A stretch of DNA of 36,981 bases from Pseudomonadota bacterium (GTDB lineage: Bacteria > Desulfobacterota > JAPLJL01), in NCBI GenBank assembly GCA_026388655.1, contig JAPLJI010000072.1:1-36981 (forward strand). The letters are read 5' to 3'. This document shows, piece by piece, positions 1,290 to 27,659 of the stretch (positions are counted from its first letter, which is position 1; every line of letters begins with the position of its first letter). The notes beneath the pieces were generated by a model, which did no database searches, was not told the DNA's origin, and worked only from the letters and a program-made list of their open reading frames with translations. The position numbers and the translations under genes were made by a program.

Positions 1290-1579
1290 ACGAGGGGGAC
1301 GTAGTTCCGTCCTCCTGCGCTAAAGCTTCTGACTACGCCAAGGCTAAGTCGGACAGGCCGAAGGACAGGAGCTTCGAAGGATAAATTAGTTCCGTTATTA
1401 TTTTGCCCGCGAGAGTTCGTTAAATAATTGACGATTGAAAGCTGGTAGATAGAAGATGGGAGATAGGAGATAGCAGTAAAAAATGAGATTGCCGCGCCCG
1501 TTATCAAGGCCATTTAGCGGAGTTTAAAGTCTCAGTTCACCGCAATGACGAGATGAAATATCAGAAAATTGAGCGTTTA
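1290..1579. repeat. repeat-filled gap between the NYN gene and the toxin-antitoxin pair
   Basis: No gene is visible here. It holds an 8-bp hairpin directly after the NYN stop (GGGGGACG with CGTCCTCC, about 1296-1318). A CCAAGGC/GGACAGGCCGAAGGAC repeat relic follows at about 1336-1367, then a heptad tract at 1443-1477, and then a copy of the GAGATTGCCGCGCCCG ... CGCAATGACGAG repeat (1485-1552), which occurs again at 2235-2274. Confidence 0.6.
1443..1477. repeat. 7-nt period tract (TGGTAGA/TAGGAGA type)
   Basis: Five consecutive 7-nt units can be laid out as TGGTAGA, TAGAAGA, TGGGAGA, TAGGAGA and TAGCAGT. It is one of a set of heptad tracts, each with a different unit, found in most gaps of this window. 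Confidence 0.75.
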
Positions 1580-1601
1580 TTTGTATGGTATAATTTACAA
1601 A
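1580..1601 (+). promoter_or_regulatory. extended -10 promoter and palindromic operator of the toxin-antitoxin operon
   Basis: TATAAT at 1589-1594 is preceded by TG one base upstream (1586-1587), an extended -10 that needs no strong -35. The box sits inside an inverted repeat, TTTGTA (1580-1585) and TACAAA (1596-1601). Repressors made by type II antitoxins commonly bind such palindromes over their own promoter. The predicted start of transcription is about 20 bases before the antitoxin ATG. Confidence 0.6.
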
Positions 1602-1622
1602 ATCAATCGGAGGGAAAAGACG

Positions 1623-1868
1623 ATGAAATACAAGGTCAAGGAAGAAGCAGCGCAGTACGTTATTGACAAGAAAGGTAAGCCCAAGGCAGTGATCCTCCCG
1701 GTAGAGGAATATCAAAGAATCCTCGTCCTTATTTCGGAATTGACAGACCGGAAGGAGTCAAAAAATCTCTCTCGATCCAGGGAATTTAAAAAGCTGGTCC
1801 GGAGAGGTTTAAAAGAAATCAAGGAAAAGAAAGCAATACCCTGGGACGAGGTTTGGAATGAATTATGA
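1623..1868 (+). CDS. antitoxin of a type II toxin-antitoxin pair (Phd/RelB-like)
   Basis: This 81-residue protein has an N-terminal part (KYKVKEEAAQYVIDKKGKPKAVILPVEEYQRIL) that matches the Phd/YefM-RelB style of antitoxin. Such proteins bind DNA as dimers through the N-terminus and wrap the toxin with a charged C-terminal tail, here about residues 45-81 and rich in Lys, Arg and Glu. I chose ATG 1623 over an in-frame upstream start at 1569 because a CGGAGGG site lies just before it and the -10 box at 1589-1594 falls between the two. The gene overlaps the toxin by 11 bases, the usual arrangement for translational coupling. The operator at 1580-1601 suggests autorepression. Confidence 0.8.
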   Translation: MKYKVKEEAAQYVIDKKGKPKAVILPVEEYQRILVLISELTDRKESKNLSRSREFKKLVRRGLKEIKEKKAIPWDEVWNEL

Positions 1869-2208
1869 AGTCCGTTTGACCGACACTCTTCAGAAATCTT
1901 TAAAGATTCTGAAGAAAAAATTCCCTCGGATTAAAGAAGACCTTCTCCCAATCGTTCAATCGCTGGAAAAAGAACCATTCTGGGGCGAGCGAATTCCCGG
2001 CTGGAAGGGTGAAATCTGGAAAATCAGGGTAAAAAGTTCGGATCTTCAAAAGGGTAAAAGCGGGGGATTCCGGTTGATTTATCGCTGGAAGGAAAAAGAA
2101 AAGGAGGTCTTTCTTCTTACGGTTTATTTCAAAAGCGATAAACCGGATATCTCAGGCGCCGAAATAGAGGATATTCTCAAAAAGCTGAATAATGAATTAG
2201 AGAAATAG
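1858..2208 (+). CDS. RelE/ParE-type toxin
   Basis: This 116-residue basic protein has YEVRLTDTLQKSLKILKKKFPRIKEDL at the start and a core of IWKIRVKSSDLQKGKSGGFRLIYRWKEKEKEVFLLTVYFKSDK. That beta-sheet core is typical of the RelE/ParE superfamily. RelE members cut mRNA at the ribosome and ParE members block gyrase; the sequence alone does not decide between them. It overlaps the upstream antitoxin by 11 bases, so the pair forms one operon. It is slightly longer than the usual 85-100 residues because of a C-terminal helix (EIEDILKKLNNELEK). Family assignment is from fold pattern and context. Confidence 0.78.
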   Translation: MNYEVRLTDTLQKSLKILKKKFPRIKEDLLPIVQSLEKEPFWGERIPGWKGEIWKIRVKSSDLQKGKSGGFRLIYRWKEKEKEVFLLTVYFKSDKPDISGAEIEDILKKLNNELEK

Positions 2209-2508
2209 TTTTTTGCGGGAATAAGCGTAAGATCGAGATTGCCGCGCCCGCTTTAGCGTGCTCGCAATGACGAGTTGAAATTATGACCCCCTCACACCCC
2301 CCGCCCCTCGACTCCGCTTGGGTCAAGCCCTCTCCCACGGAGGGGAGAGGGGATTCTATAAAGGAAATGTAGATTGAAGAAAATTAATATCGCAGCCTGA
2401 AGGCTGCGGCTACCTTGAACCTTGCCTCCGGCCCGTATGGGCCTAGGGCCCGGAGGGAACTTTGAACCTTGAACCCTGAGCCTTGACCTTTGAGCTTTGA
2501 GCTTTTTA
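2209..2508. repeat. gap made of four different repeat types
   Basis: No gene is visible. In order it holds the GAGATTGCCGCGCCCG ... CGCAATGACGAG repeat (2235-2274), a CCTCTCCC/GGGGAGAGG repeat (about 2290-2354), a hairpin GCAGCCT-GA-AGGCTGC followed by GGCTAC (2392-2413, also at 5129-5150 and, inverted, 21249-21271), a GGCCC-rich palindrome (about 2427-2455), and a heptad tract (2458-2506). Confidence 0.7.
2458..2506. repeat. 7-nt period tract (AACCTTG/AGCTTTG type)
   Basis: Seven perfect-length units follow one another: AACTTTG, AACCTTG, AACCCTG, AGCCTTG, ACCTTTG, AGCTTTG, AGCTTTT. The tract ends two bases before the acsE stop codon (2509-2511). Confidence 0.85.
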
Positions 2509-3430
2509 TTACGCTTCCAACCAGAGGTGTGAGTAGACGGTGTGACCCAGAAGGACGCGGGCGGTTTTGTAGTACTTGAGCTCGATCTCCGAAAGGGAGT
2601 TCTTGTCCACGGACTCGCCGTCCATCAGCCGGTGGATGAGCTTCTCGATCTCAGGTTTCTTTCCCCGGGCGATCTCGATCAGCTCCTGGTCGAATGAATT
2701 CACGATCGCGGAAGACAGGCCGTAACGCTTGAGCATGATGAAATAGGTTTTGTCCAGCCAGTGCCGGAGCTCGGCGGGTGCGCCGTTCGAGATATTGGAT
2801 AGCCCGCAGGTGGAGCCGCAGCCCGGGGCGATATCGGCGAGCAGGCTCTGGAAGGTGAGGCAGGATTTGACCTGGTTGATTTCGACGCTGACCGGGGAGA
2901 TGATGGGGTCAATCAGGATATTATCGTTGGGAATCCCGAATTCGGACGCTTTCTGAAGAGATATTATCGTTGGGAATCCCGAATTCGGACGCTTTCTGAA
3001 GAAAGTCCACTGCCATTATGGCCCGCTCGTTTTCGTCCCGGGGCATGCCTTCCGCCCCCCAGAGAAGGGCGATGACATAGGACCCGTGTTTTTTCGCGAG
3101 CGGCAGGAGCCGTTCCGCCCGGCCGGGCTGGAGGGAGACGGAGTTGATGATCGCCTTGCCCCGGTGGGCTGCCAGGCCCGCCTCCATCGCGTCCATGTTG
3201 GTGGTGTCGAGGCTCAGGGGAAGGATGACAACTTCCTGGATGGTTTTCACCGCCCAGCCCAGGAGATCAGGCCCGTCTTTCCGAGCGGGGCCGATATTCA
3301 CGTCGATATAATCAATCCCGGCCTGGACCTCGGCCCGGGCCATGTCCTGGATCGGCTGGCCTTTTCTTTCCTTGAGCGCCGGGCCCAGGGTCTTGGACAT
3401 GATGTTAAGATTCTCACCGATCAGAAGCAT
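2509..3430 (-). pseudogene. acsE: methyl-tetrahydrofolate:corrinoid/iron-sulfur protein methyltransferase, frameshifted
   Basis: AcsE moves the methyl group from methyl-THF to the cobalt of the AcsCD corrinoid protein. The N-terminal frame (ATG at 3430) reads MLLIGENLNIMSKTLGPAL, then DYIDVNIGPARKDGPDLL and LSLDTTNMDAMEAGL, the pterin-binding TIM barrel of the DHPS-like family. It breaks near 2960. The C-terminal frame contains SPVSVEINQ, APGCGSTCGLSNISNG and the end HTVYSHLWLEA. An exact 43-nt tandem duplication (2917-2959 and 2960-3002) causes the shift; removing one copy restores a 292-residue protein. The start has a good AAGGAG site and the gene is last in the CODH/ACS run. It may be a true mutation or an assembly error. 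Confidence 0.85.
2917..3002. repeat. exact 43-nt tandem duplication inside acsE
   Basis: Two identical 43-base copies lie head to tail, beginning GATATTATCGTTGGGAATCC and ending CTTTCTGAAGA. Because 43 is not a multiple of three, the acsE frame shifts by one. Confidence 0.95.
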
Positions 3431-3445
3431 GGTTAACTCCTTATT

Positions 3446-3494
3446 GATTGGTCATAGGTCATAGGTGATAGGTCATAGGTAATAGGGAATAGGG
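3446..3494. repeat. 7-nt period tract (CATAGGT/AATAGGG type) upstream of acsE
   Basis: Seven units: GATTGGT, CATAGGT, CATAGGT, GATAGGT, CATAGGT, AATAGGG, AATAGGG. It lies 15 bases upstream of the acsE start. A hairpin repeat beginning GTCATCCTGATCCCG and ending CAGAATGACAAG follows at about 3527-3582. Confidence 0.85.
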
Positions 3495-3593
3495 AAAAAC
3501 CGAGATTCTTCGCCCTTCGTTTCTTGTCATCCTGATCCCGTCTCTGACGGGAGAAGGATCTCGAAGGGCTCAGAATGACAAGAATAGTGTGTT

Positions 3594-3670
3594 CTGCTTA
3601 CTGTCTTATACCCTATGCTCTTTGCCCTTTGCTCTTTGCTGGTTACTGCCTACTGCCTACTGCCTACTTC
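3594..3670. repeat. 7-nt period tract (TTGCCCT/CTACTGC type) entering acsC
   Basis: Eleven units can be read in register: CTGCTTA, CTGTCTT, ATACCCT, ATGCTCT, TTGCCCT, TTGCTCT, TTGCTGG, TTACTGC, CTACTGC, CTACTGC, CTACTTC. The last unit contains the acsC stop codon (3664-3666), so the tract runs into the coding end. Confidence 0.85.
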
Positions 3671-5007
3671 AATTCTTTGAGGAACGGTGTGATGTGTTGC
3701 GCTTCCCGCGGGCCGATAATAATCTTCCAGCCCGCCAGCTCTTCTTCCAGCTCCCCGCTCAACCCCGCCACCATCCCGGGGATAACCAGGCGCTGGTTGG
3801 AGACTTTCTGGTCGATCCCGCATTTTTTCACGTAAGCGGCGATCCCGTCGGCGGCGAATTTCCCGGCGGCCCAGGCGGTGACCACGGAAAGACCCTCGGT
3901 ATTAAAAACGATCAGCCAGGCCGGGAGCTTGGAGTTCTCCACCTCGCCCGAGACGATGAAGTAGGTTAAAGAGAAGTTGGTGGTGATCAGGACCGGGGAA
4001 TCCGCCGTCGGGCCGTTGATCTCATAGATGCCGGGGCTGGTGGCCATGGGGCGCTGGGGATCGGTAAAGATGTTCATCCGCTCCAGGAGAAGCGGGAAGA
4101 GAACCTCGCCCGGGACGTCGGAAAGGGTTACGATCCCGGCATACTTGGCGATGAACACCGAGGCATAAAGGGCTTCCTTGAGGAGATCATCGGTCATCAG
4201 GCAGGGAAAGGTGATTGTCGGGAAGCCCAGGGCCTTGTTCTGGGCGGCAATTACCGCCCGGCGGATCATCACCTGTTCCTCGAAAGCTTTTCCGATGGCT
4301 CGGGTGCCGGTATCCAGCACCAGGTCATTCAATCCCGCCGCCTGGAGTTCACTGGAAAGCGCGACTAACGATTCCAGATCTTTCCCGTGGACGATCAGGG
4401 GAAGACCTTTGCTTTTGGCGATCTCCGCCATGGCCTTGGAATTCTCCGTGGTGGCCGGACCGACCAAGGGTTTCCGGTTTGCCACCTTTTCCAGCCCGGC
4501 TTTTAAGACCTCGGGGTTTTCGGACCGGAGGATCAAAGGAGCAAGGGTGAGCCCGGCGACTTTTTGGACGAGGGCGGCAAATTTCTCCGCGTTCCCGCTT
4601 TCCGCATCGATCAGGACGAGGTCGGCCTTGAGCTTGAGCCCCACCCGTTCGTAGACATTCCGGTTGAAATTATTCAGCTTGGCCTCCACCAGGGAATCGG
4701 GCTCTTTATCGGTAACCCGCAGCGCGATGCCGGTGGGATTATAGAAGGTTTTTTCATGGCGGAACTGGACGGTTTCCCCGCCGACCTTGACGGTTCTTTC
4801 CCCCGCGCCGATCGTGACCGTTCGGATCGGGGGGGCGGCGGCATGGGAAAGCTTGGCCTTGGATTCCTCGGAGACGTGCGGGCACAGGGAAAGCTCGGCC
4901 TGCCCGGAAGCCAGCTTCATCGCGAAAGCCATGCAGGTCGGCACCCCGCAGTCCTTGCAGTTGGTTTTCGGCAGGAGTTTGTAGATTTCAATTCCGCTCA
5001 AAGCCAT
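3664..5007 (-). CDS. acsC: corrinoid/iron-sulfur protein large (gamma) subunit
   Basis: This 447-residue protein carries the methyl group on cobalt between AcsE and AcsB. The N-terminal [4Fe-4S] motif is seen as Cys17, Cys20, Cys25 and Cys42 (TNCKDCGVPTCMAF ... LSLCPHV). This cluster reductively reactivates the cobalt. The middle part is a TIM barrel (for example KPLVGPATTEN and IVHGKDLESL) and the C-terminal third is the corrinoid-binding domain. Length agrees with Moorella-type AcsC. The start at 5007 has a GGGAGGA site. It lies between acsB and acsE in the transcription order, separated from acsB by a 200-base repeat-filled gap. It forms a heterodimer with AcsD, encoded further upstream in the same run. 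Confidence 0.95.
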   Translation of the reverse strand: MALSGIEIYKLLPKTNCKDCGVPTCMAFAMKLASGQAELSLCPHVSEESKAKLSHAAAPPIRTVTIGAGERTVKVGGETVQFRHEKTFYNPTGIALRVTDKEPDSLVEAKLNNFNRNVYERVGLKLKADLVLIDAESGNAEKFAALVQKVAGLTLAPLILRSENPEVLKAGLEKVANRKPLVGPATTENSKAMAEIAKSKGLPLIVHGKDLESLVALSSELQAAGLNDLVLDTGTRAIGKAFEEQVMIRRAVIAAQNKALGFPTITFPCLMTDDLLKEALYASVFIAKYAGIVTLSDVPGEVLFPLLLERMNIFTDPQRPMATSPGIYEINGPTADSPVLITTNFSLTYFIVSGEVENSKLPAWLIVFNTEGLSVVTAWAAGKFAADGIAAYVKKCGIDQKVSNQRLVIPGMVAGLSGELEEELAGWKIIIGPREAQHITPFLKELK

Positions 5008-5023
5008 TTCAATCCTCCCTCAT

Positions 5024-5058
5024 TATCAATTACCAATAACCAAGCTCCAATAACTAAA
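5024..5058. repeat. 7-nt period tract (TACCAAT/AACCAAG type)
   Basis: Five units, TATCAAT, TACCAAT, AACCAAG, CTCCAAT and AACTAAA, lie just upstream of the acsC start. A CAGATTGC ... CGCAATGAC repeat follows at about 5061-5093. Confidence 0.7.
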
Positions 5059-5105
5059 TTCAGATTGCTTCGTCGCTTCGCTCCTCGCAATGACTAACTT
5101 GATAG

Positions 5106-5125
5106 CCCGATAAATCGGGCAACTA
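5106..5125. repeat. 20-nt fragment of the MITE-like element
   Basis: CCCGATAAATCGGGCAACTA is the exact reverse complement of 11181-11200, the inner end of the element at 11165-11291. It suggests a decayed copy. It is followed by the hairpin GCAGGCT-GA-AGCCTGC plus GGCTAC (5129-5150). Confidence 0.7.
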
Positions 5126-5153
5126 CGCGCAGGCTGAAGCCTGCGGCTACCAT

Positions 5154-5209
5154 CTGCTTACTGCTTGCTCCCTACGCTCTGCTCTATGCCCTATGCCTAC
5201 TGCTTACTT
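5154..5209. repeat. 7-nt period tract (CTGCTTA/CCCTATG type) entering acsB
   Basis: Eight units: CTGCTTA, CTGCTTG, CTCCCTA, CGCTCTG, CTCTATG, CCCTATG, CCTACTG, CTTACTT. The final unit includes the first bases of the acsB stop codon (5208-5210 on the plus strand). Confidence 0.8.
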
Positions 5210-7412: not shown

Positions 7413-7433
7413 TTACATTTCTCCTTGATAAAT

Positions 7434-7511
7434 GATCAGGTTCAAGGTTCAGCGTTCAAGGTTCAGAGGTTCAGAGGTGTCAACCGTGAACGTTGAACGT
7501 GGAACAGTTTC
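7434..7511. repeat. 7-nt period tract (TTCAAGG then CGTTGAA type)
   Basis: Units run GATCAGG, TTCAAGG, TTCAGCG, TTCAAGG, TTCAGAG, then after a one-base slip TTCAGAG, GTGTCAA, CCGTGAA, CGTTGAA, CGTGGAA, CAGTTTC. It occupies most of the gap between cooS and acsB. Confidence 0.8.
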
Positions 7512-7550
7512 GATTTAACCCTTTATGTTATTCCAGTTCCCTTCTCATGC

Positions 7551-9440: not shown

Positions 9441-9756
9441 GTTAACCTCCTTAATGAGGATATTCCTAGTTATTTAATTTGCTTTTTATATGGACTGCAT
9501 CGGCTTGCCGATGCGTTGCCGAAGTCCCTCCATTGTCGGGATAAACAAGCTTCTGCACTCCATAAAAGAATGTGCGTCGCATTAGCAAGCTAATGCACTC
9601 CAAAAAAACATCCGTTTCTTTTTTGTCATCCCCGTGCAAACGGGGATCCAGGCGTCGTCCCCGCGAAAGCGGGGAACCAAAATATAAAATCTGGATTCCC
9701 GCGTTCGCGGGAATGACGAGAAAAACAAAAGAATTTTTATCGTTTAGCATGTTGCT
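9441..9756. repeat. gap between acsD and cooS holding several hairpin repeats
   Basis: No gene is visible in these 316 bases. The cooS ribosome binding site is at the left end. The middle has GC-poor short palindromes (GCATTAGCAAGCTAATGC at 9577-9594). At 9626-9720 there are three hairpins of the GTCATTCCCGCGAAAGCGGGAATCCAG type: CCCCGTGCAAACGGGG, CCCCGCGAAAGCGGGG and TTCCCGCGTTCGCGGGAA. These are REP-like elements found in many proteobacterial genomes. Confidence 0.75.
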
Positions 9757-10698: not shown

Positions 10699-10757
10699 AT
10701 TTTCCTCCTTAACTTTTACTCGAAATTACCTTTTACCTGACTTCGAATTTATCGCTT

Positions 10758-10858
10758 TTCGTCATTCCGCACTTGATGCGGAATCCAGGTTTCTAAATCA
10801 ATAATTCCCAACTTTTGTGAGGACTGTGTCTGGATTCCTGCTTTCGCAGGAATGACAA
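10758..10858. repeat. two REP-like hairpins upstream of acsD
   Basis: GTCATTCCGCACTTGATGCGGAATCCAGG (about 10760-10788) and GGATTCCTGCTTTCGCAGGAATGACAATC (about 10831-10859) are inverted copies of the same hairpin family seen at 9626-9720 and 24786-24854. Confidence 0.75.
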
Positions 10859-10866
10859 TCAAACAT

Positions 10867-10908
10867 TTCTTGCTCTTTGCGCTATGCCCTTTGCCCTTTG
10901 CCGCTTTT
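10867..10908. repeat. 7-nt period tract (CCTTTGC type)
   Basis: Six units, TTCTTGC, TCTTTGC, GCTATGC, CCTTTGC, CCTTTGC and CGCTTTT, end one base before the stop codon (10910-10912) of the 73-residue gene. Confidence 0.8.
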
Positions 10909-10909
10909 G

Positions 10910-12060: not shown

Positions 12061-12072
12061 AACTTTATCGTA

Positions 12073-12100
12073 AACTCGAAACTCGAAACCCGAAACTACT
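12073..12100. repeat. 7-nt period tract (AACTCGA type) between folD and cooC
   Basis: Four units, AACTCGA, AACTCGA, AACCCGA and AACTACT, cover the intergenic space and reach into the folD stop codon (12096-12098). The same heptamer reappears at 22700-22740. Confidence 0.75.
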
Positions 12101-15664: not shown

Positions 15665-15726
15665 ACGACCGCTGACCGCCGACCGCAGACCGCCAACAAA
15701 AATTTAGACGTGAGACGTGAGACGAT
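15665..15726. repeat. two 7-nt period tracts (CTGACCG and AGACGTG types)
   Basis: Units ACGACCG, CTGACCG, CCGACCG, CAGACCG and CCAACAA (15665-15699) are followed by AGACGTG, AGACGTG and AGACGAT (15706-15726). Confidence 0.75.
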
Positions 15727-15737: not shown

Positions 15738-15782
15738 ATAGGGTTTATCGGGTTTGTTGGGTTTGTTGGGTTTGTTGGGTTT
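15738..15782. repeat. 9-nt tandem tract (GTTGGGTTT)
   Basis: Five units, ATAGGGTTT, ATCGGGTTT and three perfect GTTGGGTTT copies, form the only clear 9-base period in the window. It lies between the molybdopterin enzyme and the second ArsA-like gene. Confidence 0.85.
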
Positions 15783-18023: not shown

Positions 18024-18152
18024 GGGTGCCGTTATTATTCCGTAACCGGGTTTAAAATGGAATATCCCTAAAGGTTCTTTTTTATGGTAAACACTTATGG
18101 TAAGCACTTTCCGGTTGCGGATTGAAATATAATTGTTATTATTTTTCGAAAT

Positions 18153-18167
18153 GCAGCCGCCGGCTGC
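18153..18167. other. palindrome between divergent genes
   Basis: GCAGCCGCCGGCTGC forms a 6-bp stem between the divergent molybdopterin enzyme and TPR gene. No T-run follows, so an operator or a repeat relic is more likely than a terminator. Confidence 0.35.
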
Positions 18168-18210
18168 TTCAAACGCAAGCCAGCGAATGTTTTAGGAAAA
18201 GAGAATCTTT

Positions 18211-18918: not shown

Positions 18919-19030
18919 AGAAAGCCGCTCCCAAGTTGTTTCCGGGCCAATTTGTTGTTGCGTCGATTTGTTCCCCAGGTAAAAAAGACACTTTAATTTG
19001 GGTTGGTTTATTTTATACTTAGGTTAAATC

Positions 19031-21178
19031 ATGGAATCCTTTGAATTTCTAAAATCCAGGTTTAAATCCGAAGATGTGCCGAAAGTGATTCAGCTTTCCG
19101 AGCTTTCCCTCGGGATGATAAAGGCCATGCTCCGGAGCGGCTATTACGATCCCAGCCATCCCTCGGCCCTCTCGGCCAAGGTTGGGCTTTATGAGGAATT
19201 TACAAAATTGATCGGGGATCGGGAAAACCTGACCTTTATCCGCAAGGAAACCGGGGAAAAAAAGGATATCCTCATTGACGGGCTTTTGGCCGAACCGCTG
19301 GAACTTACCGGCATCGTGGCCAAATCCACGGCGGAATTGTTTGTCCCCCGCTTTCTGGACTTTTATGAGCGCAGGACCCTCCTTTCCTACACGGTCAAAC
19401 GGGATATCAGCCAGAAAGAGTTTGAGGCTTTTATCGACCTGATGAGCCAGCCCCCGGTCGCCTCCGCCCGGGTGGGGGAGGAAGCGGACCGTTTAACCGG
19501 GGCTTTTCTCGGCCAGGGCATCATCAATGTTTCGGTGATTTTCGCCGGCGACGTGGTCGGGTCCGATCGACATCTTCCCTGGAGGGTGGAACTGGCGCTG
19601 ACCCGCCTCTCCAAGGATCTCATGATGATTCCCCTCTTCAAAGGAGTGGATCCGAAGAAGCTGTCCCGGGCCAAGCGGCAGGTGTTTGAAGATATCATCC
19701 GCCCGGTTCGCCGTCCGGATTTTATCAAGGAAATTCTGATCAATTCCGACCTGGTGGTGGAAGCCGCCGGGGAATTTAAGGACATTAATATCGAAGCCGA
19801 GATCATTAACAACATTCCCGACAACCTGATGGTTTCCACCACCCAGGAATTAATAACTGATCTGGACCAGATTCGAAAAAGGGTCGAGAGCGTGGTGGGC
19901 CAGGAAGGTTTCCAGTGGCGGGAAAAGCGGCTGCTTTCCATCACCAAGCTCATCGTCAACCGCCTCCTGCGGGAATCCGTCCCCGAAGCGGAAGGAATTT
20001 TAAAGGATCTTTTTGCCCGCGGGCTCGTGCTTTTTGACGACCTGCCGAAACCGATCCAGGAGAGGATTATTGTCGAGCGATTGGTGGAGGAATTCCTGGC
20101 CGGCCGCTTGCCGATCGCGGAGAAGCTCCGGACGGCGGCCACGGGCAAGGATTACCTGAAGACCGCCAACGCTTTCGGGCGGATTCTCGCGGAGGTAATC
20201 AGGCGGGGCGCTTATGCCCCGGTTACCGAGGTCATCCAGCTTCTTCAGCAGCACAAAGAAAAGGCCGGCTCCGGATTTCCGGAAAGGGCGGAACTGGCCC
20301 GGAAAACCTGGGAGGGAATTTTCACCCCCGTGGTAATGGATGCGGTGTTGGAAAGGTTCGAAAAGGGAGGGAAGGAAGTCCGCCAGGAGGTCCTGAAACT
20401 GCTCGGGCCCCTGGGGACGGGAGCCATCCCGGTATTTCTCCAGCTCATGAAAGAAAGCAAGGACCGCTGGGTACGGAAGAGTGCGGCCACCGCGATTATC
20501 CAGATGGGGGACCTGGCCCTGCCCACGATACTAACCGAGGTTCAGAAAAAGGATTCGGAGTGGTTCGTAGTCCGCAACCTCCTCGGGATATTGGGTGAAA
20601 TCGGCAGAATGCGGGAAGCGGGGACCGTCCGCAAATACCTGGATTACCCCCAGGCCCGGGTGCGGGAAGAGGCCTTGAACGCCCTGGTCCGCCTGGTCAA
20701 GGAAGGAAGCGAGCCGGCCTTGATCGGGGCGATGATGGACAAGGAAATATCGGTCCGGCGCAAGGCCGTCGCCCTCCTGGCTCAGAATCCCTCCACCAAC
20801 CCCGAGACCCTGGCCCGCCTGCTGGATATCGTGCGCCGGAGGGGCAAGAAGGAACCGGAAGAGGATGAGGCGCTCCAGATCCAGGCCTGCATGACCCTGG
20901 CCAAGTATGCCCGGCCGGGTATGTCCGAGCGGATTGAAGAGGTGTTACTGGGGGCGGTTTCCCGGGAGAAGCGCTGGCTCCTTCCGGGGGCCGAGCAGGA
21001 AAAGAGCGACAAGGCCAAACTGGCGATAATTCAGGCCCTGGCCAAGGTGGGTTCGAAGGATTGCATCCCGGTGCTGAAGGATCTGGAAAAGAAAGGCGAT
21101 AAGGAAATCCGGGAGGCGGCCAAGGCCTCACGGGAAGAAGTGGAAGAACGGCTCAGTCAAAAAAACAATGACAGGTAG
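19031..21178 (+). CDS. large HEAT-repeat protein
   Basis: This 715-residue cytoplasmic protein has no signal peptide. The N-terminal 300 residues are helical without an obvious named domain (ESFEFLKSRFKSEDVPKVIQ). The C-terminal half has HEAT-like repeats from about 440 on, for example GTGAIPVFLQLMKESKDRWVRKSAATAIIQMG, VREEALNALVRLV and EISVRRKAVALLAQ. Such alpha-solenoids serve as scaffolds. Similar HEAT proteins in related bacteria are often near signalling or chaperone genes, but nothing here shows the partner. It follows the TPR gene on the same strand with a TATACT-like box just upstream, so it may be expressed separately. The stop codon lies within a heptad tract. Confidence 0.75.
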   Translation: MESFEFLKSRFKSEDVPKVIQLSELSLGMIKAMLRSGYYDPSHPSALSAKVGLYEEFTKLIGDRENLTFIRKETGEKKDILIDGLLAEPLELTGIVAKSTAELFVPRFLDFYERRTLLSYTVKRDISQKEFEAFIDLMSQPPVASARVGEEADRLTGAFLGQGIINVSVIFAGDVVGSDRHLPWRVELALTRLSKDLMMIPLFKGVDPKKLSRAKRQVFEDIIRPVRRPDFIKEILINSDLVVEAAGEFKDINIEAEIINNIPDNLMVSTTQELITDLDQIRKRVESVVGQEGFQWREKRLLSITKLIVNRLLRESVPEAEGILKDLFARGLVLFDDLPKPIQERIIVERLVEEFLAGRLPIAEKLRTAATGKDYLKTANAFGRILAEVIRRGAYAPVTEVIQLLQQHKEKAGSGFPERAELARKTWEGIFTPVVMDAVLERFEKGGKEVRQEVLKLLGPLGTGAIPVFLQLMKESKDRWVRKSAATAIIQMGDLALPTILTEVQKKDSEWFVVRNLLGILGEIGRMREAGTVRKYLDYPQARVREEALNALVRLVKEGSEPALIGAMMDKEISVRRKAVALLAQNPSTNPETLARLLDIVRRRGKKEPEEDEALQIQACMTLAKYARPGMSERIEEVLLGAVSREKRWLLPGAEQEKSDKAKLAIIQALAKVGSKDCIPVLKDLEKKGDKEIREAAKASREEVEERLSQKNNDR

Positions 21179-21254
21179 CCGGTAACCAGTAGCCGGTCGC
21201 CGGAAAAAATAGAAGAAAGTTGCCGGAGGCTTGGGTGACTGGGGACTGGTAGCC
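21171..21254. repeat. 7-nt period tracts (GCCGGTA and GGGGACT types)
   Basis: Units ACAGGTA, GCCGGTA, ACCAGTA, GCCGGTC and GCCGGAA (21171-21205) begin over the stop codon of the HEAT gene. After 28 bases GGTGACT, GGGGACT and GGTAGCC follow (21234-21254), then an inverted copy of the GGCTAC hairpin repeat (21249-21271). Confidence 0.7.
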
Positions 21255-21353
21255 GCAACCTTCAGGTTGCGAATATCATTTTTAAGTGCTGAAAAAAATA
21301 CTCCTTCTCCCCCCAGGGGAGAAGGCGAGGATGAGGGGGGAAAAAAATTTGAA

Positions 21354-21381
21354 CCCTTTGCCCCTTGCGCCTTGCTTCGGT
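21354..21381. repeat. 7-nt period tract (CCCTTTG type)
   Basis: Units CCCTTTG, CCCCTTG, CGCCTTG and CTTCGGT end a few bases before the stop codon of the YbaK-like gene. A CTTCTCCCCCCAGGGGAGAAG repeat is immediately to the left (21304-21342). Confidence 0.65.
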
Positions 21382-21389
21382 TGGGCCAT

Positions 21390-21872
21390 TTATATCGCTA
21401 CATTCACGGGGGTGGGGTTCAGGATTTTACGCAGATCCCCGGGCGACATCTCCGCCAGCAATCCTTTTTTCCCAGCGTTAATGTAAAGCTTGGGCAGGTC
21501 CAGGACCGAGGCCTCAATATATACCGGGAGAGGTTTTCTGGTTCCAAAGGGTGAGGTTCCCCCCACGATATATCCGGTATGCCGGTGGGCGTCTTCCGGT
21601 TCGCAGGGTTTTACCGATTTCACTTTCAGCAATCTCGCCAGGTTTTTCGTGGATACGGATTTGTTTCCATGCATCAGGATGATGAAGGGCTTGCCCTGGT
21701 CATCCTCCATCACCAGGGTTTTTATGACCATATATTCATCCACCCCCAGTTCCCGGGAGGCCACCTCGGTCCCGCCTTTTTCCTCATACTTATAAGGATG
21801 GAGGGTGAAGGTTACCCCTTTTTCTTTCAATTCCCGGATGGCGTGTGTGATGGGGGTTTTATCTTGAGTCAT
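21390..21872 (-). CDS. ybaK: YbaK/EbsC-type Cys-tRNA(Pro) deacylase
   Basis: This 160-residue protein removes cysteine wrongly attached to tRNA-Pro. Family features seen are THAIRELKEKGVTFTLHPYKYE at the start, VIKTLVMEDDQGKPFIILMHGNKSVSTKNLARLL with the key lysine in VIKTL, and YIVGGTSPFGTRKPLPVYIE near the C-terminus. The length matches the free-standing YbaK family (about 159 in E. coli). The window also encodes a prolyl-tRNA synthetase with an inserted domain of the same fold, which clears Ala-tRNA(Pro), so the two editing activities complement each other. It is on the minus strand after a metallohydrolase gene, about 24 bases downstream. Confidence 0.93.
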   Translation of the reverse strand: MTQDKTPITHAIRELKEKGVTFTLHPYKYEEKGGTEVASRELGVDEYMVIKTLVMEDDQGKPFIILMHGNKSVSTKNLARLLKVKSVKPCEPEDAHRHTGYIVGGTSPFGTRKPLPVYIEASVLDLPKLYINAGKKGLLAEMSPGDLRKILNPTPVNVAI

Positions 21873-21895
21873 TCAAGAATCAGGAGATATTTATT

Positions 21896-22519
21896 TTAAA
21901 AGAAGGGGTTGTGTTTCTTTTCGAAACCCACCGAGGTGTCCGGGCCGTGGCCGGGGCAGACCCGGGTGTCCTCGGGGAGGGTGAAGATTTTTTCCCGGAT
22001 CATCCGGATTAATTGGTCGTAGTCGCCGCCGATCAGGTCGGTCCGGCCGATGGAACCGGAAAACAGGGAATCACCCACGAAAATCACTTTTTCATTGGCC
22101 GCGTACAGGCTGATGCCCCCGGGGGAATGTCCCGCGGTCAGGTAAACCTTGAGAACAATGCTTCCGATTTTGATCTCGTCCCCTTCCTTTATATATTGAT
22201 CGGCGGAAGGGGGCAGGGAAGGTTTCATCCCAAACATGACCGCCTGGGCCGGGGAGGTTATCAGGTATTTGGATTCTTCCTTGTGAATCAGGATTTTTGC
22301 GTCGGTTGATTCCTTGAGCGATTTGGCCGCGCCGATATGATCGATGTGGGCGTGGGTGATGATGATATAAAGAAGTTTGAGCTTATGGCGGGTCAAGGTG
22401 CGCAGGATTTCGTCCGCGCTGAAACCGGGGTCGATCACCGCGGCTTCGCGGGTCTTTTCATCCCCGCAAATGTAGCAGTTGGTCATAAATGGTCCGAGTT
22501 CAAGCTTTTCTAAAATCAT
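21896..22519 (-). CDS. metallo-beta-lactamase-fold hydrolase (glyoxalase II-like)
   Basis: This 207-residue protein has the metal-binding motif THAHIDHIG (about 64-72), then AGHSPGG, GDSLF and CPGHGPDT, which together supply the two-zinc site. This small glyoxalase II-like group includes thioester hydrolases of broad and mostly unknown specificity. I chose ATG 22519 because a GGAGGT site precedes it at the right distance. A longer frame up to 22669 would add a membrane-like segment, but it lacks such a site and runs into repeat DNA. It is followed by the YbaK-like gene and may share its transcript. The exact substrate cannot be told. Confidence 0.85.
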   Translation of the reverse strand: MILEKLELGPFMTNCYICGDEKTREAAVIDPGFSADEILRTLTRHKLKLLYIIITHAHIDHIGAAKSLKESTDAKILIHKEESKYLITSPAQAVMFGMKPSLPPSADQYIKEGDEIKIGSIVLKVYLTAGHSPGGISLYAANEKVIFVGDSLFSGSIGRTDLIGGDYDQLIRMIREKIFTLPEDTRVCPGHGPDTSVGFEKKHNPFF

Positions 22520-22654
22520 CTTTTTTGACCTCCATGAATCAGTTGCCAATAACCAAATTCCCAGGACTAAAAAAATAACAACGGATCCCAACCCGATCAA
22601 TTTTTTCATAGGTAAACATGAAATTCTTTTCAGTGTCAGTTTCAGTTTGTTTTG

Positions 22655-22740
22655 ACGTAAATTCGTCAATCGTCATTCGTAAATCGTCAATGTTGTTTAA
22701 CCCGGAACCCGAAACTCGAAACTCGAAACTCGAAACTTTT
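22655..22740. repeat. 7-nt period tracts (ATCGTCA and ACTCGAA types)
   Basis: Units ACGTAAA, TTCGTCA, ATCGTCA, TTCGTAA, ATCGTCA and ATGTTGT (22655-22696), then ACCCGGA, ACCCGAA, ACTCGAA, ACTCGAA, ACTCGAA and ACTTTT (22700-22740). The second tract stops one base before the phosphohexomutase stop codon. Its unit is the same as at 12073-12100. Confidence 0.9.
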
Positions 22741-22741
22741 C

Positions 22742-24175
22742 CTAACCCAGTATCCACTTGTGCGCGGCTTTTTCCAGCTCCCGCATCTCTTTTTCCGATC
22801 GGCCGTCCAGGTAGATACGGACCACCGGTTCCGTTCCCGATTTGCGGGCCAGGATCCAGCTTCCGCCCTCCAGGATAAGTTTGACGCCGTCCAGTTCGTT
22901 ACGTTCGATCACCTTTAACCCGGCGATTTTACCCGGGTTTCCCGCCAGTTTTTTCCCGATTTCTTTTTCCAGCTGGGGGGTTAGAACCAGGTTGATCCGG
23001 TGGTTCAGGACCACCCCGACCTCGCGGTAGAGATCTTTCAGGAGCCGGCTCAAGGTTTTCCCGGTCCGGGCCACCATTTCCGTCACCAGGAGACCGGCCA
23101 GGATGCCGTCCTTGTCGGGGATATGTCCGCCGATAGACATCCCGTGGCTCTCTTCACCGATTAAAAATGCGCCCTGCTCGAGCATCACCCGGCCCAGGTA
23201 TTTGAACCCCACCGGGGTTTCGATAACCTTTCTTCCGTATTTTTCCGCCACCCGGTCAATCAGGTGGGAAGTGGCCACGGAGCGGGCCACGGGCCCCCGG
23301 GCGCCGCGTTCGCGGATCAGGTAATCGGCCAGGAGGGCCAGGATGTAATTCGGCTCGATGAATTTTCCGCCCCGGTCCACGATCCCGAAACGGTCGGCGT
23401 CGGGGTCGGCGGCCAGACCCAGGGCCAGTTTCCGGTTCCGGGCCAAGAGACCGCGCAGCTCACCCAGGTGATGCTCGCTGGGATCGGGCTGTAAACCTCC
23501 AAACCCGGGGTTGGCGTCGGAATGGAGCAGGGTCACTTCGGCCCGGGCCCGGAGCAGGATTTCATCCAGGTATCCCCGGGAGGTGCCGAAGAGCGGGTCC
23601 ACCGCGACTTTTATTTTTGCCTTCCGGATGGCGTCCAGGTCGATCCTGCGGGCCAGGGCCTTGAGGTAGGGTCCGCTGAAATCAGCTTCTTTAATCAGGC
23701 CTTTTTTCCGGGCGGCGTCAAAATCCATTTCCAGGAAATGTTCACGGCGGACAAGCAGGTTGGCCCGCTTTTCGATCTCGCTGGTTACCTGGGGTTCCGC
23801 CGGTCCGCCCCAGTCCGGGGAAAACTTCAGTCCACTGTATTCCGGGGGGTTGTGGCTCGCGGTGATATTGATCCCTCCACTGGCTTTGCGGTTCAAAATG
23901 GAAAAGGCGATGACGGGGGTGGGAACATCCCGTTTGGAAAGGACGCTTTTGATCCGGTTTCCGGCCAGGACTTCCGCGGCGGCCCGGGCGAACCGGTCCC
24001 CGAGGAACCGGGTATCGTAGCCAACCAGGACCTCGCCCCGGGACAGGCCCGAGCTTTTCAGGTAATCCGCGATGGCCTGGGTCACGACCTTGACCCTGGT
24101 GAAGGTGAAATCCCGGGCGATGACCGCCCGCCATCCCGAGGTTCCGAATTTAATGGGCGCGGTTTTTGTTTTCAT
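22742..24175 (-). CDS. alpha-D-phosphohexomutase (phosphoglucomutase/phosphomannomutase)
   Basis: This 477-residue enzyme moves phosphate between C1 and C6 of a hexose. The four domain signatures are present: the phosphoserine loop GGINITASHNPPEYSG with Ser107; the metal loop AADPDADRFG with Asp257, Asp259 and Asp261; the sugar-binding GEESHGMSIGGHIPDKDG; and the phosphate-binding RKSGTEPVVRIYLDG. Length is normal. The start is ATG 24175. The GEESHG motif fits both phosphoglucomutase and phosphomannomutase activity, so the substrate is open. It is transcribed toward the metallohydrolase, with a gap full of heptads in between. Confidence 0.92.
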   Translation of the reverse strand: MKTKTAPIKFGTSGWRAVIARDFTFTRVKVVTQAIADYLKSSGLSRGEVLVGYDTRFLGDRFARAAAEVLAGNRIKSVLSKRDVPTPVIAFSILNRKASGGINITASHNPPEYSGLKFSPDWGGPAEPQVTSEIEKRANLLVRREHFLEMDFDAARKKGLIKEADFSGPYLKALARRIDLDAIRKAKIKVAVDPLFGTSRGYLDEILLRARAEVTLLHSDANPGFGGLQPDPSEHHLGELRGLLARNRKLALGLAADPDADRFGIVDRGGKFIEPNYILALLADYLIRERGARGPVARSVATSHLIDRVAEKYGRKVIETPVGFKYLGRVMLEQGAFLIGEESHGMSIGGHIPDKDGILAGLLVTEMVARTGKTLSRLLKDLYREVGVVLNHRINLVLTPQLEKEIGKKLAGNPGKIAGLKVIERNELDGVKLILEGGSWILARKSGTEPVVRIYLDGRSEKEMRELEKAAHKWILG

Positions 24176-24392
24176 TTCTCCCCTGCCTTTTATTCAGACT
24201 TTCTTTATCCAAAGATACAGAATACCACTTTAAAAATAAACCAACCCCCTACTTTCCCCTCTCCCCTCAGGGGAGAGGATTGAGGTGAGGGGGAAAGTCT
24301 AAATTTGAACAAATATTATGATTAAGAATAAAATATTTATGCTAATATTTTAACAAGAAAAATTTTGGATCCGAAGAAAAAGCGGAGGAAAT

Positions 24393-24716
24393 ATGCCAAA
24401 GGAAATAAATCAGGCCAATTTTGATCCGGAGGTTCTGAAGTCATCAGAACCGGTGCTCCTCGATTTCTGGGCTCCCTGGTGCGGTCCCTGCCGGAGAATG
24501 GCCCCCATCTTGGATGAAATCGAAAAGGATTTTCCGGGCAAACTGAAGGTGGGCAAGTTAAATGTGGACGAGAACCCGGAACTGGCCCAGCAGTTCCAGG
24601 TCATGTCGATTCCGACCCTGATGGTTTTTAAGGGCGGGCAGGTGGTGGAGAAGATAATCGGGTTGACCCCCCGGGCTGATATAGTCAAAGTTCTGCAAAA
24701 GTACATTTCCCCATAA
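24393..24716 (+). CDS. trxA: thioredoxin
   Basis: This 107-residue protein has the redox motif WAPWCGPCRRMAPIL with Cys30 and Cys33, the buried LLDFWAPW strand, and the cis-proline loop MSIPTLMVFKGG. Length and motif match classical cytosolic thioredoxin, a general disulfide reductase. A GCGGAGGAAAT site is placed well before ATG 24393. It stands alone, about 220 bases ahead of the NuoE-like gene, with a REP-like hairpin pair and a heptad tract between them, so co-transcription is uncertain. An AT-rich region upstream (24301-24360) probably holds its promoter, but no hexamer pair is convincing. Confidence 0.95.
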   Translation: MPKEINQANFDPEVLKSSEPVLLDFWAPWCGPCRRMAPILDEIEKDFPGKLKVGKLNVDENPELAQQFQVMSIPTLMVFKGGQVVEKIIGLTPRADIVKVLQKYISP

Positions 24717-24785
24717 ATTAAAATATTTCCGTGGGCAGGAGCGAACTATACATAGCGACTTAAGTAATTGCGAATGAAAAAATTC

Positions 24786-24854
24786 TTGTCATTCCGGGCT
24801 TGACCCGGAATCCAGTCTGTTTTTCTGGATTCCCGCTTTCGCGGGAATGACGAT
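24786..24854. repeat. pair of REP-like hairpins
   Basis: GTCATTCCGGGCTTGACCCGGAATCCAG and GGATTCCCGCTTTCGCGGGAATGACGA face each other, the same family as at 9626-9720 and 10758-10858. Confidence 0.8.
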
Positions 24855-24889
24855 TGATGCGAAAATATTTATGACGCCGTATTTAATAA

Positions 24890-24924
24890 CGCATGCCAAC
24901 CCCTGACTCCCAACACCCAACTTT
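24890..24924. repeat. 7-nt period tract (CAACACC type)
   Basis: Units CGCATGC, CAACCCC, TGACTCC, CAACACC and CAACTTT lie 15 bases upstream of the NuoE-like start. Confidence 0.7.
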
Positions 24925-24939
24925 TTTAGCCTTAATATA

Positions 24940-25431
24940 ATGCTTAATCCCGAAGAAGAAATCCGTTTGATTCGGGAGGAAATCCTGCCCGGGTTCCAAC
25001 CCCCGGAACCCCGCTTTTTAATCCCCATTCTTCAGGAGATCCAGGCCCGCCTCCGATATCTACCACTGGCCGGTCTCCGGATCGTATCCGATTACCTGGG
25101 GATGAGCGCGGCCGCCGTCTGGGGCACGGCCACGTTCTACTCGCAATTCCGCTTCGCTCCCCCCGGTCAAAATCAGGTGAAGATATGCCTGGGAACGGCC
25201 TGCCATATCAAGGGCGGGGAAGCCATCCTGGAAAGCTGGGAGCGGGAACTCAAGATCAAGATAGATGAAACCACCCCGGACCGGGCCTTCAGCCTGGAGC
25301 GGGTGGCCTGTGTCGGCTGTTGCGCGCTGGCGCCGGTGATGGCGGTCAACGATTTGATCGTGGGCAAATCCAGTCCGATTTCGGTCAAAGGGGTTATCCT
25401 GAAATCCCAAATTCCAAACAAATCTCAATAA
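24940..25431 (+). CDS. NuoE-like [2Fe-2S] subunit of an NADH-linked oxidoreductase
   Basis: This 163-residue thioredoxin-fold ferredoxin subunit has four cluster cysteines, Cys83, Cys88, Cys124 and Cys128 (KICLGTACHIKGG and ACVGCCALAP), with NuoE/HndA spacing. The N-terminal helical part (YLPLAGLRIVSDYLGMS) is also typical. It is the first of three same-strand genes that together resemble the diaphorase arm of complex I or of HydABC/Hnd enzymes. No Shine-Dalgarno sequence is clear before ATG 24940. The last residues (SQIPNKSQ) are encoded by a heptad tract that runs through the stop codon, so the tail is probably not functional. Confidence 0.9.
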   Translation: MLNPEEEIRLIREEILPGFQPPEPRFLIPILQEIQARLRYLPLAGLRIVSDYLGMSAAAVWGTATFYSQFRFAPPGQNQVKICLGTACHIKGGEAILESWERELKIKIDETTPDRAFSLERVACVGCCALAPVMAVNDLIVGKSSPISVKGVILKSQIPNKSQ

Positions 25432-25471
25432 CTAAGCGCCGATAACCAAACAAATCCCAAAACTTAAAACA
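25402..25471. repeat. 7-nt period tract (AAATCCC/AACCAAA type) crossing a stop codon
   Basis: About ten units (AAATCCC, AAATTCC, AAACAAA, TCTCAAT, AACTAAG, CGCCGAT, AACCAAA, CAAATCC, CAAAACT, TAAAACA) start inside the last codons of the NuoE-like gene. The tract is degenerate. Hairpin repeats with GTCATTCTGAACCCCGCC and CAGAATGACATTC follow at about 25515-25632. Confidence 0.6.
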
Positions 25472-25673
25472 AGGAACCACATTGATTAAGAGATCGTCGC
25501 AAAACACCCATTTTGTCATTCTGAACCCCGCCTCTGGCGGGGTGAAGAATCTCTCTTCCGATGGAGAAACCAGAAAAACTAGATCCTTCACTTCGTTCAG
25601 GATGACATATAGCGAAGGACTCAGAATGACATTCAGTACATTTTGCGACGGTCTCATTAATAATGATTGAGCG

Positions 25674-27647
25674 ATGAAGCGGAATATCGCTATCCGGATC
25701 CAGGAGGCCTGGGAGCATCTGCAAAACCGGGTTCAGGGTGGAGAGGAACGGAAAGATATTCCCGAGATCCGGCTGGGGACCGCCACCTGCGGAAGAGCCT
25801 CGGGGGCACTGGAAACCCTGGCCGCGTTCCGGGAGGAAATCTCCCGGAATTCACTCCAGGTCCGTCTCCTCGAAGTCGGGTGCGTCGGCCATTGCTACGC
25901 CGAACCGATCGCAGTGGTCGCAAACCCGGGCTTCCCCCCCATCCTGTACGGATCCGTGACCCCCGGCGTAGCGCGCCGGCTGGTCCGGGATTTTCTGGGA
26001 GCGGGAGACCCCTGCCTCGAATTCGCCCTGGGAGCCGTGGAAGAAAACGAGAAGATTCCCTCGATTTTCGAACTCCCCCGGTTCCGGATGGAAAAAAAGA
26101 TCATTTTGGAGCACGCCGGCTGGATCGATCCCGCCCGCGGGGAGGAATACCTTCTCCGGGGCGGATACCGGGGCTTATTCCAGGCCCTGGGGATGGATCC
26201 GCGGGAAGTGATTCGGGCGGTCAAGGCCGCAGGGATCCGGGGCCTGGGGGGCGCGGGATTCCCCGCCGGCGAGAAATGGGAAACCTGCCGGGCTTTTCCC
26301 GGGAAACCAAAATATGTTGTGGGCAATGGTGACGAGGGCGATCCCGGGGCCTTCATGGATCGGGCCCTGCTGGAAAGCGATCCGTTTTCGGTGTTGGAGG
26401 GAATGACGATCGCCGGCTACGCGGTGGGAAGCCGTCGGGGGTTTCTCTACGTCCGGGCCGAGTATCCGCTGGCGGTGGAACGGGCTCGGGCCGCGATGGA
26501 ATCTTTGCGGGGATTAGGGCTTTTAGGAAAGGACATCCTGAATAGCGGGTTTGATTTTGAGATCGAGCTGGTGCGCGGAGCGGGGGCTTTCGTCTGTGGG
26601 GAATCCACGGCCCTGCAGGCCTCCATTGAAGGGAAAAGGGGAATGCCGAGGGTCCGCCCTCCCCATTCGGTGGAAAGGGGTTTATGGGGAAAACCCACCC
26701 TGCTGAACAACCTGAAAACCCTGGCCGTGGCGGCCCGGGTCCTGGACCAGGGGAGTCCCTGGTTCCGCTCCTTTGGCACACCCCGTTCGAAAGGGACCGT
26801 GGTTTTTTCCCTGGCCGGCAAGATTCAGAATACCGGTCTGATCGAGGTCCCCATGGGCACGACCCTCCGGGAGTTGGTTTTTGCCTCCGGGGGCGGGGTG
26901 CCGAAAAAGAAAACCTTGAAGGCGATCCAGATCGGGGGACCGTCCGGCGGCTGCCTCCCGGCGAGTCTGGCCGATACCCCGGTGGATTTTGATTCCCTGA
27001 ACGCCGCCGGGTCGATCATGGGATCGGGGGGGATGGTGATTCTGGATGAGGATGACTGCGTGGTCCGGACCGCCAGGTTTTTCCTGGATTTCACCCAGAA
27101 GGAATCCTGCGGCAAGTGCACCCCCTGCCGGATCGGCACCTACCAGATGCTCAAGATCCTGAACAATCTGGTTTTGGGAAAGGGATCGGACTCCGAACTC
27201 AAGCTCCTCGAGGATCTGGCTTTCGAGGTGCAGGAGGGATCCCTCTGCGGCCTGGGACAGACCGCGCCCAACCCGGTGCTTTCCACCCTGCGCTATTTTC
27301 GGGATGAGTATGAGGCTCATTATCGGGAGGGAAGATGCCCCGCCCGGGCCTGCCGGGATCTGATCGCCTACTATATCCTTCCGGAAAAATGTTCCCGCGC
27401 CTGCGAGGTTTGCGTCGGGGCCTGCCCGGTCGAGGCCATTGCCACCGGAGCGAAGGGGATCAAGGTGATTGATCAGAACAAGTGCGTAAAATGCGGAAGT
27501 TGTTACGGGGATTGCCCGCCGGAGTTCCAGGCGGTAATCAAGGTTTCTCCGCCGGCCAAGCTCAGGGAGTATGAAGCCAAGTCATCTTTTCCCCGAAAAT
27601 TGACGAATGACGATTTACGATTGACGAATGAAAACGAAAAGAAATGA
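25674..27647 (+). CDS. NuoF-like flavoprotein with C-terminal ferredoxin domain
   Basis: This 657-residue NADH-binding subunit has three parts. The N-terminal thioredoxin-like domain has Cys39, Cys70 and Cys74. The NuoF core has the NADH/FMN loops GLGGAGFPAGEKWE (about 190-203) and GAGAFVCGESTALQAS, and the [4Fe-4S] N3 site Cys479, Cys482, Cys485 and Cys525 (SCGKCTPCRIGTY). The C-terminus has a two-cluster ferredoxin with Cys573, Cys577, Cys580, Cys584 and Cys604, Cys607, Cys610, Cys614. The first ferredoxin set has a CX3C where CX2C is usual. This architecture is that of HydB/HndC subunits, which in some enzymes bifurcate electrons between NAD and ferredoxin. The last about 15 residues (LTNDDLRLTNENEKK) come from a heptad tract. 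Confidence 0.92.
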   Translation: MKRNIAIRIQEAWEHLQNRVQGGEERKDIPEIRLGTATCGRASGALETLAAFREEISRNSLQVRLLEVGCVGHCYAEPIAVVANPGFPPILYGSVTPGVARRLVRDFLGAGDPCLEFALGAVEENEKIPSIFELPRFRMEKKIILEHAGWIDPARGEEYLLRGGYRGLFQALGMDPREVIRAVKAAGIRGLGGAGFPAGEKWETCRAFPGKPKYVVGNGDEGDPGAFMDRALLESDPFSVLEGMTIAGYAVGSRRGFLYVRAEYPLAVERARAAMESLRGLGLLGKDILNSGFDFEIELVRGAGAFVCGESTALQASIEGKRGMPRVRPPHSVERGLWGKPTLLNNLKTLAVAARVLDQGSPWFRSFGTPRSKGTVVFSLAGKIQNTGLIEVPMGTTLRELVFASGGGVPKKKTLKAIQIGGPSGGCLPASLADTPVDFDSLNAAGSIMGSGGMVILDEDDCVVRTARFFLDFTQKESCGKCTPCRIGTYQMLKILNNLVLGKGSDSELKLLEDLAFEVQEGSLCGLGQTAPNPVLSTLRYFRDEYEAHYREGRCPARACRDLIAYYILPEKCSRACEVCVGACPVEAIATGAKGIKVIDQNKCVKCGSCYGDCPPEFQAVIKVSPPAKLREYEAKSSFPRKLTNDDLRLTNENEKK

Positions 27648-27659
27648 CAAATGACGATT
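27597..27659. repeat. 7-nt period tract (CGATTGA/CGAATGA type) inside and after the NuoF-like gene
   Basis: Units AAATTGA, CGAATGA, CGATTTA, CGATTGA, CGAATGA, AAACGAA, AAGAAAT, GACAAAT and GACGATT. The stop codon (27645-27647) lies within the tract, so the repeat encodes the protein's C-terminal tail. Confidence 0.85.

Follow-up and report, generated by a model that had tools for sequence, protein, structure and literature searches.

The degenerate tandem repeats with a seven-base unit (heptads) that lie between the genes of a 36,981-nucleotide contig from a Desulfobacterota draft genome (JAPLJI010000072.1 of assembly GCA_026388655.1, here called the window) are probably in large part the arms of small scattered hairpin elements. 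At odds that we put at about two in three, these tracts largely represent arms, mostly without a gene, of intergenic relatives of the intervening sequences (IVSs) of rRNA, reshaped by slippage of whole units. An element of this kind would consist of an arm, a centre and an inverted arm, with each arm holding about 4–9 degenerate copies of one unit (mostly 7 bp, sometimes 8–10). In a minority, the centre would be a single open reading frame (ORF) for the S23p/IVP four-helix-bundle protein (PF05635, TIGR02436); in the majority, the ORF would be missing and a hairpin or a single decayed arm would remain.

The window belongs to a 3.56-Mb draft genome (G000). Two sister species, represented by the drafts LacPavin_0920_SED1_MAG_56_8 (G001) and STA_72 (G002), are its closest named relatives. 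All genome statistics are based on samples of each genome (287 kb for G000), with genes called by a simple custom gene finder. Tandem Repeats Finder (TRF) returned period-7 arrays at 12 of the 15 places in the window where the initial annotation had listed heptad tracts, and a custom scan detected one more (5154–5208); the remaining two, 24890–24924 and 25402–25471, are weak only, with lag-7 matches of 0.50 and 0.48. The proposal that the period is a genome-wide property was borne out. Autocorrelation of the intergenic DNA of G000 peaked at lag 7 (0.291; the remaining lags between 4 and 11 gave 0.256–0.280), echoes followed at lags 14, 21 and 28, and the coding value at lag 7 (0.245) equalled background. 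In a tract census competitive over periods 5–12, the window contained 15 strong intergenic tracts of period 7 and one of any other period, and the rest of the G000 sample contained 79 of period 7 (Markov shuffles gave 0.4), 15 of period 8 and 8 of period 9, with a single tract in 171 kb of coding DNA. The same census found 97 period-7 tracts in the G002 sample, 19 in that of G001 and none in an E. coli control. Period 7 thus dominates between the genes of G000 and of both sister species and is nearly absent within them. That the period never differs, as the initial annotation also held, did not survive, as the window has a 9-mer array at 15741–15782, and tracts of period 8 or 9 were met in other places too. 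A phylum-wide property was rejected, since 46 of the 58 phylum relatives sampled had no period-7 tract; the named Dehalococcoidia loci had almost none, and a 50-kb cyanobacterial plasmid region meant as a control for short tandemly repeated repetitive (STRR) sequences had one heptad tract only.

Tracts that share a gap are often inverted copies of each other. For gaps with at least two tracts, the first was compared with the reverse complement of the last, and the two were considered alike at a similarity of at least 0.65. Inverted likeness was found in 27% of such gaps in the genus of the window (5.2% in a left/right-matched control from other gaps, p = 0.02) and in 67% in other tract-rich taxa (control 7.4%, p = 1.4e-7), with no increase of direct, non-inverted similarity inside a gap. 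DNA folding gave z-scores of −3.4 to −5.4 for three hairpins (−5.4 at 7434–7511 of the window), and compact hairpins occur in the sister genomes, e.g., L124, which reads AGGTCATAGGTCATAGGTTTTAGGTTATGGGT-AAAA-ACCCATCACCTATGACCCATCACCTATCACCT. Arms are complementary inside an element and different between elements.

The short ORFs seen in gaps with inverted arms led us to seek two likely protein families, GxxExxY/PDDEXK_3 and the 23S rRNA intervening-sequence protein (S23p/IVP, PF05635). The latter had 8 matches in G000, 6 in G001 and 7 in G002; TIGR02436 matched all nine aligned IVP proteins, and their relatives in the PDB are 2gsc, a solved S23p relative that is XCC0516 of X. campestris, and 2rld. 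Nearly all complete IVP genes of the genus lie between inverted tandem arms, with units GATTGAC, GACCGC, AGTTTCG, GGCAGTA, AAGGTCA, CGTAAGG, or 8- and 9-mers, and the loci inspected are intergenic stretches. A flanking inverted repeat score of at least 14 was reached by 12 of 13 genus IVP genes (median 20), as compared with 4.1% of 579 control genes and 1.5% of 131 small ones (p = 1.2e-9). Plasmid relatives of these genes are mostly cyanobacterial, plus Riemerella and Gemmatirosa. Inverted arms were present at 13 of the 18 plasmid IVP genes inspected (9.5% in a mismatched-flank control, p = 1.9e-6) and at 2/36 ordinary genes of one plasmid, with units that include AGTAGGG, AGGTGAC, AGGGAAC, AGGGTGT, CAGGAGT and GGTTTAA. 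On the plasmids, the loci inspected are between or next to protein-coding genes, some of them inside operons (between cas6 and cas4, between nrdB and nrdA, and between two type III-B genes of a CRISPR system, from clustered regularly interspaced short palindromic repeats).

Several related loci were observed alongside these. The IVP genes between cas6 and cas4 belong to type I-D CRISPR operons of two distant cyanobacteria (plasmid loci L357 and L368), and the one between two type III-B genes is at L366. At L129:2977-3603 (G001) and L349, a GxxExxY/PDDEXK_3 nuclease ORF lies between inverted 8-mer arms (CACCAAGA / TCTTGGTG), which repeats the arm architecture with a different protein family and a different period; this ORF with its arms is missing from the orthologous G002 gap. 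As a general carrier, the GxxExxY nuclease (PF13366) was rejected, considering that G000 has none, although one sister copy has 8-mer inverted arms. A period-9 tract family (GTCCATAGT/GTCCATTGT) was seen at L331, L333, L012 and L125, with inverted arms around an IVP gene at L331.

Orthologous sites on Nostoc plasmids provide direct evidence that arms and gene are gained or lost together. At one gene junction, an arm-ORF-arm insert of 417 bp is present in L378 and L380, and the junction is empty in L379 and L381. At the next junction of the same operon, L369 carries a 506-bp element relative to L379/L381, with other arms and another protein. The third site is in nrd, empty in L383 and filled in L358. 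The empty junctions of L379, L381 and L383 contain no heptads, which indicates that the arms arrive with the gene. Copies that lack the ORF were found as well: L382 has an ORF-less 182-bp hairpin of the same heptads within an IVP gene, and in one gap shared by two sister species, G001 has an ORF with GACCGC arms (L133) where G002 has an inverted pair that lacks the ORF (L128). Target-site duplications of 7 bp made by a known transposon were rejected as the source of the units, as none was seen at the empty sites.

One ORF-less form is dispersed in many copies with fixed ends. The hairpin at L129:1977-2105 of G001 has 55 matches in G000, 69 in G001 and 1 in G002, and its family (TAATTTC) is 125–145 bp long with heptad arms. 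Across 28 aligned copies, the ends are sharp and common and the units keep their order (AAATTTCTAATTTCTAATGACGAATTTCTAATCAATGACC..., with the inverse at the opposite end), and the centre is variable. With these common ends and this heptad order, the family is a dispersed hairpin element with degenerate heptad arms, and not the product of independent slippage at each site. Its short length, many copies, terminal inverted repeats and lack of a transposase ORF are traits of miniature inverted-repeat transposable elements (MITEs). By eye, TA often precedes the left end and not the right one. Also by eye, the ends have no GTAG/CGTC tag and single arms are not palindromic, so the family does not resemble repetitive extragenic palindromes (REPs) or their paired form (REPINs) with a REP-associated tyrosine transposase (RAYT). 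A second arm family, from L117, is scattered through all three genomes.

The units themselves are also shared across gaps. The initial annotation had considered them unrelated, and yet the 161 tracts draw on only 88 distinct units, when 147 would be expected after shuffling of the letters (lowest value in 500 runs, 137); the units are reused and hence not independent. A heptamer in common with the arms of seven IVP loci was found in 52% of the sampled G000 tracts (column-permuted tracts, 17 ± 4%), and 8/16 period-7 tracts of the window have heptamers that also occur in IVP-element arms of the genus. Comparing homologous gaps of sister species, as had been suggested, we found tracts present there too, with other units. 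Among 60 orthologous gap pairs, 19 had a tract in both members, 26 in neither and 15 in one only (Fisher p = 1.9e-4, with gap length not controlled).

If the tracts are arms of IVS relatives, the elements would move as DNA (or RNA) hairpins, helped by the four-helix-bundle protein or by a host enzyme, and the likeness of paired arms would be maintained by hairpin-mediated template switching plus slippage. A number of observations weigh against this interpretation. No IVP ORF is present in the window, and just one inverted pair there (7438–7465 / 7479–7505) is clear; the tracts of the window are therefore taken as ORF-less or decayed arms, and we infer that those without a partner are decayed copies. 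Most multi-tract gaps of the genus have no recognizable pairing, and there are 8 IVP matches for about 1000 tracts per genome (extrapolated). Inverted arms are missing at 5/18 plasmid IVP genes, and at one of these five, L368 on a Pseudanabaena galeata plasmid, the gene lies between near-perfect long heptad arrays (AAAGCTA, 15 units) in direct orientation. The IVP genes of the three viral loci L384–L386 (two of them inspected), which possibly represent a phage-borne element, have a heptad tract (TTGGGAA) on the upstream side only. At the plasmid empty sites, no target-site duplication beyond 0–3 nt was seen, movement of an element was not observed, and the elements contain no known transposase, though no search was aimed at a transposase with the ends of these elements. 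G.U pairs are not preferred on the sense strand among the mismatches between arms, either in the genus (24 sense vs 35 antisense) or in other taxa (24 vs 25).

The last of these counts bears also on an RNA-level account, by which the transcribed element would fold into a stem that RNase III cuts, in the manner of the 23S rRNA IVS, and would persist because it is removed from the mRNA, with a stem built of heptads surviving slippage. The ORF bounded by a stem is the architecture of the IVS (PMC4990558), and the placement of tracts is also in keeping with a transcript: they are rarer in divergent gaps (1.3 per kb vs 3.1–3.4) and enriched within 0–15 bp of stop codons (36 vs 12.7 ± 3.3 expected). 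Without a G.U bias on the transcribed strand, and with mismatches at a random transition:transversion ratio, selection on an RNA stem is unsupported, and we consider this account unlikely, although it fares best among the alternatives. Supply of stop codons by the tracts, a TAACTGA-like function, was rejected, as stops are just mildly above those in column-permuted tracts.

Somewhat less likely still is that slippage explains everything without any element, i.e., that the replicative polymerase slips most easily by about seven bases in unconstrained intergenic DNA, with loops of more than 4 nt evading mismatch repair and frameshifts purged from coding DNA. Slippage by a polymerase with a 7-nt contact was put forward by Mrazek et al. 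2007, as described in PMC4679880 and PMC4692102. Unit-wise slippage does occur, on the evidence of two observations: L033 differs from its sister L032 by an insertion of exactly 70 bp, or 10 heptads, and the similarity of copies within tracts declines with distance (0.80, 0.59 and 0.40 at lags 7, 28 and 56), as predicted for stepwise local duplication. Nor does it require a loss of mismatch repair, which was rejected, as MutS is present in G000 and G002. However, slippage by itself predicts neither inverted pairing nor the recurrence of units in different gaps, nor an association with one protein family, nor a hairpin family whose 28 aligned copies point to ends and unit order common to non-orthologous gaps, and the general replication machinery is common to the many phylum relatives sampled that lack tracts. 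The idea in the initial annotation of a process that steps by seven bases holds in part only: such slippage takes place and had already been proposed, but it leaves unexplained the inverted pairing, the fixed-end family, the 8-, 9- and 10-mer versions of the same architecture and the finding that, in several phyla, PF05635 genes are flanked by paired tracts. The annotation was right that one dispersed family would not suffice. That IVP genes merely target pre-existing heptad hairpins of other origin is improbable: tracts do far outnumber the genes, and related proteins are carried by elements with different arm sequences, but the heptad-free empty sites of L379, L381 and L383 indicate that arms come with the gene.

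The tracts of the window, delimited by TRF unless stated otherwise, can be compared with these arms individually. The first (unit AGATAGG, 1440–1476) has no heptamer in common with the IVP arms tested. AACCTTG at 2457–2505 has 23 heptamer positions in common with the arms of IVP locus L328 of G000, and GGTCATA at 3447–3496 is of the unit family of the compact hairpins L124 and L234 of the sister genomes. The tract at 3607–3668, whose unit drifts from GAGCAAA to GGCAGTA, has heptamers in common with IVP arms at L339 and L327, the one at 5022–5050 is by eye like the CCAATTACCAAG arm family of L117, and the GGCAGTA/GAGCATA tract found by the custom scan at 5154–5208 shares heptamers with L339. 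The heptad hairpin in the gap between the acsB and cooS-like genes, supported by TRF and DNA folding, has AGGTTCA as the unit of its left arm (7438–7465) and TGAACGT as that of its inverted right arm (7479–7505). Heptamers in common with IVP arms also occur in GGGCAAA at 10870–10902 (L327), AGTTTCG at 12072–12096 (L330) and GACCGCN at 15667–15693 (L329). AGACGTG at 15706–15724 is in the same gap as the 9-mer array GGGTTTGTT (15741–15782), GGTAGCC at 21174–21203 spans the stop codon at 21178, and CCCCTTG is at 21354–21375. On the minus reading, GATTGAC at 22663–22691 has the arm unit of the G000 IVP loci L340 and L343, and AGTTTCG at 22699–22737 shares heptamers with L330. The last tract, GATTGAC at 27601–27631, has the ordered motif ATTGACGAATGACGATTTACGATTGACGAATGA as at other loci.

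Other features of the window include dispersed palindromic repeats of a different kind (GTCATTCCGCACTTGATGCGGAATCCAG..., GTCATTCTGAACCCCGCC...) at 9601–9722, 10756–10862, 24782–24852 and 25490–25624, which often sit between two heptad tracts of a gap. A perfect 43-bp tandem duplication at 2917–3002 (43 mod 3 = 1) lies at the end of a short pterin-binding (acsE-like) ORF, 2921–3430, and may shift the reading frame of the gene or be an assembly error. Four clustered tRNA genes (36385–36788) lie at the contig end.

Cyanobacteria are the classic heptad-repeat organisms. An origin is lacking both for heptameric intergenic repeats and for the 23S rRNA IVS protein, and these two old puzzles may be one. 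The physical link of arms and gene in several phyla offers one testable explanation for both, a tiny mobile element that has no recognized transposase, which would account for the inverted tract pairs, the location at gene ends, the fast turnover and the patchy taxonomic spread. We tentatively extend this, as a possibility that falls a little short of even, to a single phenomenon in which the heptads of cyanobacteria, of Xanthomonas, of the Coxiella IVS and of this lineage would all be arms of a widespread class of tiny mobile elements with at most one S23p gene, no known transposase and precise insertion at gene junctions, the rRNA IVSs being members that landed in rRNA. No paper was found in the open-licence PMC literature that ties heptad repeats outside rRNA to S23p genes.

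Among known systems, the Foldback (FB) elements of Drosophila have long inverted ends made of short tandem repeats; they differ in being eukaryotic, with other unit lengths and no sequence known in common. The BrickBuilt MITE of Porphyromonas gingivalis (PMC4596501) is likewise small and intergenic, with terminal inverted repeats and tandem repeats, but its one 23-nt repeat array is internal, whereas here the inverted ends are the arrays and related copies have an ORF. In the majority of prokaryote genomes, heptanucleotide repeats are the most frequent of the long simple repeats (PMC4679880, PMC4692102). The heptameric STRR sequences of cyanobacteria resemble the tracts of this lineage as tandem, degenerate intergenic heptads of several units, and so do the GGGAATC / GGGGA(C/T)T heptads of Xanthomonas and Nostoc (PMC4692102) and TAACTGA of Beggiatoaceae (PMC4679880), which are intergenic, of several units and of high turnover; in Xanthomonas, they also form inverted pairs (70 and 75; PMC4692102). 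These heptads differ in having no published link to S23p genes or hairpin elements in the open-licence PMC literature, and the lineage studied here, related to deltaproteobacterial genomes, is sparsely sampled. Also close in architecture are the 23S rRNA IVSs of Leptospira and Coxiella, each a single four-helix-bundle ORF within inverted repeats. In Coxiella, the IVS ends are inverted repeats and 2–3 tandem heptads (GACAGAT), their number dependent on the strain, lie right before the S23p start codon (PMC4990558). The ORF-bearing copies described here likewise encode an S23p/IVP protein, within inverted repeats that can pair (12/13 genus and 13/18 plasmid loci); the ORF-less copies, which are most of them, and the window do not. 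The elements differ further from the IVSs in having arms made of tandem 7- to 10-mers on both sides, in many sequences, and in their location in intergenic DNA and operon junctions. By analogy, the elements would work like 23S IVSs, but we do not class them as such because the genus and plasmid loci inspected do not lie inside a 23S rRNA helix.

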